The notes under the pieces: model-generated
The model's database searches: none
Told to the model about the DNA's origin: nothing
The model's input: only the letters and a program-made list of their open reading frames with translations
Origin: Crocinitomicaceae bacterium
Lineage (GTDB): Bacteria > Bacteroidota > Bacteroidia > Flavobacteriales_D > Parvicellaceae
Direction of reading: 5' to 3'
DNA length: 35,459 nt
NCBI GenBank assembly: GCA_002686655.1
Contig: NYYE01000003.1
Span: 7,822-43,280 of the forward strand
In this document: piece after piece, positions 13,976 to 22,942 of the stretch
Layout of the letters: each line of letters starts with the position of its first letter
Numbering within the stretch: position 1 is the stretch's first letter
Position numbers and translations under genes: made by a program

Positions 13976-14949
13976 AATGATCTGAAGTTTTGAATTAATT
14001 CATTAATAACTTTATTAAGATCAGACTTCTTTATTGCTCCACCAGCAGCATTAATATGTCCTCCTCCACCATAGTATTTCCTAGAGAATTCATTTACTTT
14101 AACTTTCCCTTTAGATCTAAATGACATTTTAATCAACTCTTTGTCCTCTCTTAAGAAAGCTGCATTTTCAATCCCTTCTATTGAAAGACAAAAATTTACA
14201 AAACCTTCTGAATCCCCTTTTTTATAATTGAATTTACTTAACTCTTTTTCAGATAATACAAGATATGCTAATGAAGATTCTGAGTCAATTTTTATTTTTT
14301 GAAGTGCATATCCCAGTAAATTAATTTTTGAAACAGAATTTTGATCAAATATTTTGTTGTGAACCTCCACATGATTTAATCCAACATCTTTCAATTTTGA
14401 TGCTACTAAATGGGTAGATGATGAGACAGAATCGTATTTAAAAGATCCTGTATCCGTTATTAGTCCCGCATAGATAGCTTCTGAAATTGGAATATCTATC
14501 AGTTTTAAATCGCCATTAGACACAATAAAATTAAAAACCAGTTCAGATGTAGAAGAAGCTTTTTCATCAATTATTTCAAAATCACCAAAATTTTCAGGAT
14601 TGGTATGATGATCTAATACAATTACGTATTTATCATTACTATTAGAAATTATTTTATTTAAATCATTTCCTAACCTAGACCTGTGATTAAAGTCCAAACA
14701 AAATATAAGATCTGATTTATTATATAAATCAAAAACTAATTGAAGATTATCTGTAGCAACTAATGAATTTTCTAATCCAGACATCCAAGAAAGAAAATTT
14801 GGATAATGATCTGGAAAAATTATTTTATTATTGATACCTATTTTAGTTAAATATAAACTTAATGAAACAGATGAACCTACAGAATCACCATCAGGACCTT
14901 GATGAGAAAAAATAAGAGCATGTTTTTTGGTTTTAATTAAGTCTAACAT
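13963..14949 (-). CDS. nrnA: DHH family phosphoesterase, NrnA-like bifunctional oligoribonuclease/PAP phosphatase
   Basis: FSHQGPDGDSVGSSVSL, IFCLDFNHRSRLG, VIVLDHHTNPENF, AGLITDTGSFKYDS, GGGGHINAAGG. Confidence 0.93.
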   Translation of the reverse strand: MLDLIKTKKHALIFSHQGPDGDSVGSSVSLSLYLTKIGINNKIIFPDHYPNFLSWMSGLENSLVATDNLQLVFDLYNKSDLIFCLDFNHRSRLGNDLNKIISNSNDKYVIVLDHHTNPENFGDFEIIDEKASSTSELVFNFIVSNGDLKLIDIPISEAIYAGLITDTGSFKYDSVSSSTHLVASKLKDVGLNHVEVHNKIFDQNSVSKINLLGYALQKIKIDSESSLAYLVLSEKELSKFNYKKGDSEGFVNFCLSIEGIENAAFLREDKELIKMSFRSKGKVKVNEFSRKYYGGGGHINAAGGAIKKSDLNKVINELIQNFRSFCSV

Positions 14950-18559: not shown

Positions 18560-19618
18560 TTATAAAGTATTGATATTATTAAGGTCTTCAAAGGCCTGTT
18601 TTAAACGATCGATAAAAGTTTTCTCCCCTTCTCTAACCCATTTTCTAGGATCATAATATTTTTTATTAGGAGAGTCTTCACCTTCTGGATTTCCTATTTG
18701 AGATTTTAAATATTCAGTATTACCAGAAAAGAAATCTCTAATTCCTGACATGTAGGCATATTGTAAATCTGTATCAATATTCATTTTAACTACTCCATAA
18801 CCTATAGCTTCTCTTATTTCTTCAAGAGATGAACCAGAACCTCCATGAAAAACAAAGTCTATATAGTTATGATCTAAGTCATATTTGTTAGATATATAAG
18901 TTTGGGAGTTTTTTAATATTTTAGGTGTAAGTTTAACATTACCAGGCTTATAAACTCCATGTACATTCCCAAAAGCAGCAGCAATAGTAAATTTATCACT
19001 TACTTTAATTAATTCTTCATAAGCATAAGCAACTTCTTCAGGCTGAGTGTATAATTTAGAGTCGTCAACATCTGTATTATCTACTCCATCTTCTTCACCC
19101 CCTGTTATTCCTAGTTCAATTTCTAATGTCATTCCTATTTTAGACATTCTTTCTAAATATTTTTTACAAATAGCTATATTTTCTTCGATTGGTTCTTCTG
19201 AAAGATCTATCATGTGAGAACTAAATAAAGAATAACCTTTTTCTTTATATAATTCTTCACTTGCAGTAATTAAACCATCTAACCAAGGAAGTAATTTTTT
19301 TGCACAATGATCAGTATGTAGAATTACTGGAACTCCATAAGCTTTTGACATAGTATGGACATGCTTGGCTCCTGCAATAGCACCTGCGATAGCAGCAGCT
19401 TGGTTAGAATTATCTAAGCCTTTACCAGCATTAAAGACGGCGCCACCATTCGAAAACTGAATAATAACAGGTGCATTTAATTCTTTGGAAGCTTCCAGAA
19501 CTGCGTTGATACTACTAGAACCTATGACATTTACAGCCGGTAAAGCAAAGGATTTAGCTTTAGCTAATTTGAATATTTCTTGCACTTGGTCGCCAGTTGC
19601 AACACCTGGATTAATCAT
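18560..19618 (-). CDS. fbaA: Class II fructose-bisphosphate aldolase
   Basis: FALPAVNVIGSSSINAVLEAS, VILHTDHCAKKLLPWLDGL, LEIELGITGGEEDGVDN, DFVFHGGSGSSLEEI. Confidence 0.97.
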   Translation of the reverse strand: MINPGVATGDQVQEIFKLAKAKSFALPAVNVIGSSSINAVLEASKELNAPVIIQFSNGGAVFNAGKGLDNSNQAAAIAGAIAGAKHVHTMSKAYGVPVILHTDHCAKKLLPWLDGLITASEELYKEKGYSLFSSHMIDLSEEPIEENIAICKKYLERMSKIGMTLEIELGITGGEEDGVDNTDVDDSKLYTQPEEVAYAYEELIKVSDKFTIAAAFGNVHGVYKPGNVKLTPKILKNSQTYISNKYDLDHNYIDFVFHGGSGSSLEEIREAIGYGVVKMNIDTDLQYAYMSGIRDFFSGNTEYLKSQIGNPEGEDSPNKKYYDPRKWVREGEKTFIDRLKQAFEDLNNINTL

Positions 19619-19717: not shown

Positions 19718-21586
19718 TTAGAAAGGATAACCAATTCCAATATTTAACTGGGGTCTAAAATATTTTTTAATTGTATTTAAATTTTCATTAAAAACCCATC
19801 TACCAACATCATCATCATCAATTGTATATGGGTTTCTTACAGGAATTGCAAAATCCATTCTTAATATAAAATATTCAAAGTTTAACCTAAGACCAAATCC
19901 TCCACCAATTGCTATTTCATTTATTACATTATTCCATTTAAATTGGCCACCTGCTCTTGAAGAATCATAACCCATAAGCCATATATTCCCAAAATCCATA
20001 AACATAGCTCCTTCTAACCATTTTGAAAGAGGGAATCTATATTCTAAATTACCCTCAAATTTAATATCTCCAATTTTATCAAAATTTCCATCTTCCTCAA
20101 AATATATACCTGGTCCAATAGACCTAGCTCTCCAAGCTCGTAAGCTGTTAGAACCTCCAGCAAAAAAACTTTTTTCAAATGGTAAAGCCTCTTTGAAATT
20201 ATTTCTAGGAATTCCAATTCCTGAAAAAAGTCTGTAAACCATTTTAGACTCTTTTAATAGAGATTGATAATAGCGAAGGTCCAATGTAGCTTTTTGAAAA
20301 TGAGCATATCTTATTCCAAGAAAATTATAACTATTAGTGAGGGTGTTTTTTTCTTTTTGCATTAATTCATGCATTCTAAATAAAGCTCCTCCTGCGGATT
20401 CAAAAGTAGTTTTACAATAAAAAGCATTGGCATTATAATTTAATTTTTGATTGTTAAACTCAAAAGAAAAAACACCACCAGCTACAACATGATCTTGAAA
20501 ACTAGCAGAAATATAACTATCATTGAAATTGTCAATTATTTCTTGAAATTCTGAGCTAATATCAACGTCTACAACACTTATTAAAAAAGGATTGATATGC
20601 CAAGTAATATTTTTTTTCTCATGAAAAATCCAACCAAATGAAAATTCCTGATTAATCCTATCATAATCGGGTCTCTCACGAATATTGAAAGCACCAGTGA
20701 ATTCAGTTAATGGATTGATATGCTTTTTTAAATTTCCTAATTTATTAATAAGAAAATATTTGGGTAAATAAAAATGGAATTCAGGACCAATTTCTCTTGT
20801 ATTTATATTATTAGGAATATCAGACATCTCATCATCAGTTAATAATAGTTGGATTTCAAAACTACTTTTTAAAGAAATTAATAGCCTTTCACCTGCATGA
20901 AATAAATTATTATGGACATAATCGAAACTGCCTTGAAAACCAAATAAACGTTCGTTATTAGTTCCATCTAACGAAAAGGAAATATTTTGTGCTTTTGCAG
21001 GGTTTAAATCAATATTTCCGATAAGATGATTATTTCCAATAGTATCAAAGCCAATATTTACATAATTAAATAAACCTAATGAGATTAATCTTTTATAGGT
21101 TTGCTCTGCATAATCATATCTATATAAATCATCTTTTTTTAATAAAATAGATTTTTTGAAAATCTTTTTCTTGAATTTAATTGATTGATAATTGTAGATG
21201 GATAAAAAGGGGGTTATGGAACTATCCAAAAGAATATTTGAATTTAAATTCAGATCAGGCTTTATTCTAACATTTATTTTACTTATGGAATATTCCTTAT
21301 GATTTAACTCTTGAAATCCGTCTGAATTTGTTTTTTTATAATTTTGAATTCCTAAAGTAAGATTGATTTTTTTGGATGTATTATTACTATCTAAATCAAA
21401 ATATATAAACTCTTTATTAAAAGAATAAAAACCTCTATTTCTAAGATAATTACTAATCCTATCCCTTTCATAAGATAAATTATCCGTATTAAAAATAGCT
21501 CCACTTTTAAGTATAGAATTATTTTTTATGGAATCTAAATATTTAGAAATGGCTTTATCTTCACATAAATACTTAATATCATTCAA
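19718..21586 (-). CDS. TamL/BamA-family outer membrane protein, C-terminal part (POTRA plus beta-barrel); fragment of a frame-disrupted gene
   Basis: C-terminal Omp85 barrel features (FAGGSNSLRAWRARSIGPGIYFEED.., GNLEYRFPL, MFMDFGNIW, GGGFGLRLNFEYFILRMDFAIPVRNPY, LNIGIGYPF). ORF-track start is a TTG; the frame stays open back to the A10 tract. Confidence 0.85.
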   Translation of the reverse strand: MNDIKYLCEDKAISKYLDSIKNNSILKSGAIFNTDNLSYERDRISNYLRNRGFYSFNKEFIYFDLDSNNTSKKINLTLGIQNYKKTNSDGFQELNHKEYSISKINVRIKPDLNLNSNILLDSSITPFLSIYNYQSIKFKKKIFKKSILLKKDDLYRYDYAEQTYKRLISLGLFNYVNIGFDTIGNNHLIGNIDLNPAKAQNISFSLDGTNNERLFGFQGSFDYVHNNLFHAGERLLISLKSSFEIQLLLTDDEMSDIPNNINTREIGPEFHFYLPKYFLINKLGNLKKHINPLTEFTGAFNIRERPDYDRINQEFSFGWIFHEKKNITWHINPFLISVVDVDISSEFQEIIDNFNDSYISASFQDHVVAGGVFSFEFNNQKLNYNANAFYCKTTFESAGGALFRMHELMQKEKNTLTNSYNFLGIRYAHFQKATLDLRYYQSLLKESKMVYRLFSGIGIPRNNFKEALPFEKSFFAGGSNSLRAWRARSIGPGIYFEEDGNFDKIGDIKFEGNLEYRFPLSKWLEGAMFMDFGNIWLMGYDSSRAGGQFKWNNVINEIAIGGGFGLRLNFEYFILRMDFAIPVRNPYTIDDDDVGRWVFNENLNTIKKYFRPQLNIGIGYPF

Positions 21587-21632
21587 ATAGGTTGGTTTTC
21601 CAATGTCAATGAAATAAGTAATTTCAATTTCT

Positions 21633-22205
21633 CTATTTTTTTTTTGAGAAAAAGGTGGAATCAGAAATACTATTTTGAAAATAACCTTTATTAAATAAGA
21701 ATTTAGAAAATTGATCTTTCGAACGAACGGCTTTAAAAGAGCTAAAAATTACAGGTGCTTCCCCTTTTATTTGTAGTCTTTCTCCAAAGACTAATTTTCT
21801 TTCTTTAAAATTTTTAAGCTTAGCAGAGCTATCTAAAGACAACAAAAATTCATTTCTTAAATTGATTTTTTCATTTACTTTATCAATTTTGGCTTGCTTT
21901 TCATTAACTTTTTTATCAATTCTATCTTGATTTGATAGGTTATATAATGATAAATAAAATCTATAGTTAGAAAAGAGTTTTCTATTAGGTTTTTGAACCA
22001 ACAAATTATATAAATCTTCTTTTAAAAAATTACTTTCTTGAGATGGGCCAATTAATTCAATATTGACTTTCTTTAATAAATTCTTATCCTCTGGGACATA
22101 TTTAGATACATTGCATGAAACAAAAGAAAATAAGGAAATGGAAAATAAAATATTTTGAAGAAATTTATATTTGCATAATCTATATTTAATAATTATTGGA
22201 TTCAC
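21633..22205 (-). CDS. TamL/BamA-family lipoprotein, N-terminal part (signal peptide plus first POTRA); fragment of a frame-disrupted gene
   Basis: Lipobox FVSCNVSKYVPEDKNLLKKVNIEL (TamL-like start), KGEAPVIFSSFKAVRSKDQFSKFLFNKGYFQNSISDSTFFSKKK then stop directly at the A10 tract. Confidence 0.85.
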   Translation of the reverse strand: MNPIIIKYRLCKYKFLQNILFSISLFSFVSCNVSKYVPEDKNLLKKVNIELIGPSQESNFLKEDLYNLLVQKPNRKLFSNYRFYLSLYNLSNQDRIDKKVNEKQAKIDKVNEKINLRNEFLLSLDSSAKLKNFKERKLVFGERLQIKGEAPVIFSSFKAVRSKDQFSKFLFNKGYFQNSISDSTFFSKKK

Positions 22206-22222
22206 CTTACAAAAGTAACAAT

Positions 22223-22942
22223 ATGTCCATCAGCAAAAACGAATTAAAAAAAATTAGTTCTTTAAATAGAAAAAGTAAAAGAAAAGAACACGGTTTATTT
22301 ATAGTTGAAGGTGAAAAAAATTGTAATGAGTTGATAGAAAGTAATTATGAAGTTGAAATAATTTTAGCTACCTCAAAGGTTGTCTCATTATTTCCTGGAG
22401 CAATAAAATGCTCTAAAAAAGAACTCGTAAGAATAAGTAATCTTAAAAATACTAGCGATGTAATTGCGGTAAGTAAAATACCAAAAGATTTAAATTATGA
22501 AAATGACGACAAACCAATAATTTATTTAGATAACATCAATGACCCTGGAAATTTAGGAAGTATTATTCGTTCTTTAGATTGGTTTGGTTTTAAACATGTT
22601 TTTTGTTCGGAGAATACAGTGGATCAATACAATAATAAAACCATTATGGCAAGTATGGGTTCTATTTTTAGAATTCAAGCCCATTACATAAATTATCAAG
22701 ATTTTCGAAAAAAATTTTCAAAACACAACCTATATATTTCCTCTTTAAATGGTAATAATATTCAAGGAATTCAATTAAAAAAGAAAGCTATAATGGTTAT
22801 TGGGAGTGAATCTAACGGAGTTTCAGATGAAATTGAAAATGAGAATCATCAAGCTGTAAAAATACCCGGAATGGGAAAAGCTGAATCTCTAAATGCTGGA
22901 GTAGCAACAGGTATTATATTACATGAAATGATTAATGGCTAA
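22223..22942 (+). CDS. RNA methyltransferase, SpoU/TrmH family
   Basis: IIYLDNINDPGNLGSIIRSLDWFGFKHVF, MASMGSIFRI, MVIGSESNGVSDEI, VKIPGMGKAESLNAGVATGIILHE. The ATG at 22223 is preferred to the ORF-track TTG at 22196. Confidence 0.94.
   Translation: MSISKNELKKISSLNRKSKRKEHGLFIVEGEKNCNELIESNYEVEIILATSKVVSLFPGAIKCSKKELVRISNLKNTSDVIAVSKIPKDLNYENDDKPIIYLDNINDPGNLGSIIRSLDWFGFKHVFCSENTVDQYNNKTIMASMGSIFRIQAHYINYQDFRKKFSKHNLYISSLNGNNIQGIQLKKKAIMVIGSESNGVSDEIENENHQAVKIPGMGKAESLNAGVATGIILHEMING

Follow-up and report, generated by a model that had tools for sequence, protein, structure and literature searches.

A tamL gene split at a ten-adenine tract in a Crocinitomicaceae metagenome bin, probably through a homopolymer length error in a composite consensus

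The window, a 35,459-nucleotide stretch of a Crocinitomicaceae genome assembled from metagenomic data (GCA_002686655.1), carries on its minus strand the gene tamL, which extends from a GTG start at 22205 to 19718 and is divided into two halves in adjacent frames by a run of ten A residues (T10 on the plus strand). The junction reads GAT TCC ACC TTT TTC TCA AAA AAA AAA TAG, with the frame breaking after codon 190 and the TAG immediately 3' of the ten A (21645-21636). With one base fewer at the tract, the gene is 2487 nt long and encodes 828 aa with no other defect. The N-half (ORF 22205-21633) contains, as judged by eye, a lipobox (...SFVSC; ...FSISLFSFVSCNVSK), the Cys of which aligns with that of intact sister orthologues. 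The NCBIfam model NF052279 (lipo_TamL) spans the two halves end to end, the C-half alone exceeding the model cut-off of 400 bits, and Pfam matches to POTRA (1.1e-05) and Omp85 (5.3e-24) were also found in the C-half. The original prediction of a TamL-type gene split at this tract, and of a frame free of further interruption once one base is removed, is thus borne out in coordinates, identity and length. The features are compiled in Table 1.

Table 1. Features of the tamL locus (positions in the window) and location of the other frame breaks at A/T runs in the assembly (contigs).
Feature	Location	Strand	Remarks
tamL N-half as assembled	21633..22205	-	190 aa; lipoprotein signal with lipobox Cys and first periplasmic domain; NF052279 model positions 3-127, E=5.8e-24
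A10 homopolymer (T10 on +)	21636..21645	-	One surplus base breaks the frame; missing from intact sister orthologues
tamL C-half	19718..21643	-	POTRA followed by Omp85 barrel; next frame open for 641 codons; NF052279 model positions 127-747, 511.8 bits
RlmB/TrmH-type RNA methyltransferase	22196..22942	+	Divergent neighbour; 10-base overlap with tamL start
Class II fructose-bisphosphate aldolase	18560..19618	-	Downstream neighbour of tamL
pyrD	Contig C44 (L162)		A10, +1
coxB	Contig C46 (L165)		T9, +1
trmB	Contig C10 (L153)		A11, +1
286-aa gene	Contig C56 (L110)		Two breaks about 210 bases apart, A10 and A9, both +1
Remaining three tract-break sites	Contigs C20 (L073), C67 (L141), C16 (L152)		+1

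The encoded protein resembles the Bacteroidota TamL of the Fjoh_1464 type (NF052279; PMC12045153) in its lipobox Cys, POTRA domains, Omp85 barrel, single copy and end-to-end model match, but differs from it in that one surplus base cuts the printed frame after residue 190. The outer-membrane proteome is shaped by TamL, which is essential in the two Bacteroidota tested: in Flavobacterium johnsoniae both the deletion of tamL and the mutation of its lipidation site failed, and in Capnocytophaga canimorsus the deletion failed as well (PMC12045153). The dispensable paralogue tamL2 is accompanied by tamB2 (PMC12045153), which was not among the tamL neighbours tested here (RNA methyltransferase, aldolase, accD, PorT and UbiE). 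Only this one tamL scored above the lipo_TamL cut-off in the 88%-complete metagenome-assembled genome, and a further copy of this locus, whatever its tract length, was not found in the collections searched, including viral contigs.

Compared with the intact orthologue of the sister assembly G003, the C-half shows 67% amino-acid identity across 641 stop-free codons, with divergences of 0.234, 0.147 and 0.483 at codon positions 1, 2 and 3, and intact pairs within the genus give similar values for the corresponding tamL region (61-72% identity). This pattern argues that the open frame of the C-half is not a chance ORF and, since normal coding constraint is kept there, that the split tamL is not an old decayed pseudogene, in line with the original prediction. 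Four same-genus orthologues (G003, G005, G006 and G007) are intact and have unrelated codons without such a tract in this variable loop, and in a further assembly (G001) the position holds an in-frame, lysine-rich CTA AAA AAA AAG AAA; a conserved slippery tract was therefore not found among the genus relatives. The comparison of sister orthologues had also been proposed as a check beforehand; the tract proved absent from the four intact genes, and no decay was seen in the C-half.

In two same-genus assemblies, G001 (L009/L034) and G010 (L010/L042), tamL is split as well, by single-base differences at non-homopolymer sites. Both match FRAM18 metagenome bins, which are similar to the present case in their likewise split tamL, but differ in that their breaks lie at other positions, away from long homopolymers (PMC8254474). 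The FRAM18 study used both PacBio Sequel II and Illumina sequencing (PMC8254474); a putative assignment of the two bins to either technology rests on their long contigs, and we infer that the breaks are sequencing errors. A genus-wide habit of slippage was considered from these splits and rejected, as the breaks are located elsewhere, at non-homopolymer sites, in FRAM18 bins.

Frame breaks were sought in about 1.67 Mb of the 2.1 Mb of this genome and in 0.62 Mb of G003. At least nine breaks at A/T runs of 9-11 bases were detected in the 1.67 Mb, affecting eight genes and each with one base in surplus, a count pooled from orthologue-based tests and a scan, made without a reference, of runs at least 9 bases long. 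The orthologue test on 366 genes revealed breaks in tamL (A10), pyrD (A10), the 286-aa gene (A10 and A9) and a lipoprotein-like gene (T9), as well as one at a short A run close to a contig end, and the reverse test on 387 G003 genes revealed none. An ORF-truncation test (263 genes here, 271 in G003) did not change this picture, adding here only the yifB/comM-like and dprA-like genes described below; the four genes that it flagged in G003 we took for fusions or matches to paralogues and not for frame breaks. The reference-free scan, the results of which are too mixed with gene boundaries to be used by themselves, added coxB (T9), trmB (A11), an OmpA/PorE-like protein (A9) and an unnamed gene (A9); it missed the tamL and pyrD sites found by the orthologue test because another frame happens to be open there. 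PyrD is, like TamL, single-copy and in two pieces, and CoxB is encoded at one locus. The split of tamL is thus not special to TamL but shared with the housekeeping genes pyrD, coxB and trmB, a qualifier missing from the original prediction, which had treated the A10 break by itself.

The share of runs out of frame in the orthologue-checked genes rises with run length, from 0/131 at length 8 to 2/31 at length 9 and 3/6 at length 10, and this share differs between runs of 9 or more and runs of 6-8 in this assembly (p ~6e-9). The corresponding counts in G003 are 0/138, 0/27 and 0/6; the contrast with G003, the sole sister compared, is only suggestive by itself (Fisher p ~0.055-0.064). The uniform +1 sign of the breaks does not by itself distinguish mutation from error, since the next shorter runs are several times more abundant.

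Other irregularities of the assembly lie outside long A/T runs. A gene resembling yifB/comM by eye (L169, ~14,620-14,680) has lost one base in a short A run, and one resembling dprA by eye (L135, ~12,730) has a nonsense codon; both are linked to natural transformation, and the two breaks possibly reflect a real loss of competence in the lineage. Near a contig end (L073, ~13,520), a gene that looks FabK/nitronate-monooxygenase-like by eye is split by one surplus A in a run of three A, the run being too short to slip and the contig among the most N-rich. Besides, we noted a tandem array repeating about every 21 bases (L103, 8713-9268) and a 1.5-kb duplicated stretch with 80% identity (L076, 7641-9179 and 13456-14991).

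The assembly itself is a composite consensus of strain variants. It contains 2,688 isolated Ns in 1.67 Mb, compared with none in G003, and those in orthologue-covered genes fall mostly on third codon positions (492, 139 and 84 at positions 3, 1 and 2), the pattern to be expected if polymorphism among strains was written as N. Unmerged overlaps at 97-99.6% identity occur between several contig ends, and published pipelines are known to merge the contigs of several assemblies by an overlap-consensus program (e.g., PMC4699468). The window is free of Ns, including around tamL, and its contig is N-rich on either side. Within 14.9 kb of redundant contig overlaps only two A/T-run length differences occur, both between 6 and 7, and the runs of 8-9 in these few overlaps have equal length in both copies.

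Considering these findings, we propose that the A10 tract in this record is probably one base too long, the composite metagenome consensus having misjudged the length of the homopolymer. The genome is a consensus in which several strain variants of a Crocinitomicaceae-like marine population are combined; this consensus would miscount a sizeable share of the A/T runs that reach 9 bases, and any gene containing a miscounted run would appear split. We infer that the error in base count belongs to the record rather than to the cell, and an intact tamL is very probably present and expressed in the organism. As would be expected from such an error, the breaks occur genome-wide, become more frequent with run length and affect essential genes whatever their role. 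The explanation is favoured because breaks recur almost only at long A/T runs across the genome, with a share that rises with run length and with none in G003, because tamL is essential in relatives and single-copy here, with the single-copy PyrD also split, because the assembly is a composite consensus, and because the sister orthologues are intact without the tract. Some observations count against it: the agreement of the redundant overlap copies indicates that the consensus is not grossly unreliable at lengths 8-9, the surroundings of tamL are N-free, the contrast with G003 is only suggestive when taken alone, and a similar fraction of frameshifted long tracts has been reported as real in Blochmannia vafer (PMC3017870). 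Among the three options of the original prediction, assembly error, listed last, therefore fits best, and slippage or phase variation specific to TamL finds no support.

An unlikely alternative is that the A10 tract is real and that slippage of RNA polymerase yields the full-length protein, a mechanism known for the poly(A) frameshifts of Buchnera and Blochmannia, likewise rescuing pyrD, coxB, trmB and the others. In its favour, genes that are likely essential and single-copy are here broken by just one base at slippery runs and undecayed elsewhere. The gene ytfM, considered below, is the tamA of E. coli. In Blochmannia vafer, eight genes have indels in poly(A)/poly(T) tracts, among 153 long coding tracts, and ytfM is one of the frameshifted genes (PMC3017870); the out-of-frame fraction is similar to the one found here, and in endosymbionts slippage rescue at long A runs has been shown, with 12-50% of transcripts reported as corrected (PMC5009743). 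The present genes resemble those of Blochmannia (PMC3017870) in being otherwise intact, in some cases essential, and broken by one base, with the TamA family represented in both, but differ in coming from marine metagenome-bin relatives, with an unaffected sister (G003), and from a composite metagenome consensus. If the nine tracts in eight genes, including tamL, pyrD and coxB, were truly out of frame, rescue would be needed at every one of them, and all nine require the loss of one base (or the gain of two), whereas transcription slippage at such runs mainly adds a single base, and no restored frames were found when it was surveyed genome-wide (PMC5574713). Moreover, each message of the 286-aa gene would have to be rescued twice, neither the tract nor the break is present in the sisters, G003 has no such genes, and the known cases are endosymbionts with small populations. 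The programmed slippage of the original prediction is likewise not supported, given the tract-free sisters, the disfavoured direction (PMC5574713) and the RNA structure at the tract, which was unremarkable on folding (z = 0.20). It seems doubtful that a free-living-looking marine member of the Flavobacteriales tolerates real +1 frameshifts in about one tenth of its long A/T coding tracts, essential genes included, by means of transcript slippage.

We also regard it as improbable that the tract length varies among cells or strains by replication slippage, with the record having caught an off or minority allele, or, in the strong form of this explanation, that tamL, which encodes an envelope-biogenesis protein, is phase-variable. 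Points in favour are the mixed population behind the assembly, the mutability of long A/T runs and the role of TamL in shaping the outer-membrane proteome (PMC12045153). However, an off state should be lethal given that TamL is essential in both Bacteroidota tested, breaks of the same type and sign in pyrD, coxB and trmB are unexpected for phase variation, and the genus has no conserved tract, the intact sisters lacking it; the TamL-specific phase variation that had been suggested is thus not sustained.

A young pseudogene, that is, a real, recent and fixed loss of tamL function, is very improbable: the printed frame does end at codon 190, and the broken yifB/comM-like and dprA-like genes of the same assembly could be true losses, but tamL is single-copy here and essential elsewhere, and its 641 downstream codons are as constrained as in intact pairs. 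Heptamers of A6-A7 promote -1 ribosomal shifts. Programmed ribosomal frameshifting at A-AAA-AAA is the most improbable of all, for although the A-rich slippery run has a stop codon directly 3', the downstream frame lies at +1 and a -1 shift would lead into the third frame, folding revealed no stimulatory structure (z = 0.20) and the site is not conserved.

If the A10 tract is an error, as seems likely, this public genome contains a set of genes that are wrongly shown as split at A/T runs of at least 9 bases, which would lead to false calls of gene loss, of auxotrophy (pyrD) and of respiration defects (coxB). If, on the other hand, the breaks are real, the tolerance of poly(A) frameshifts, so far described from insect endosymbionts, would extend to marine plankton, and this could be tested at nine sites.
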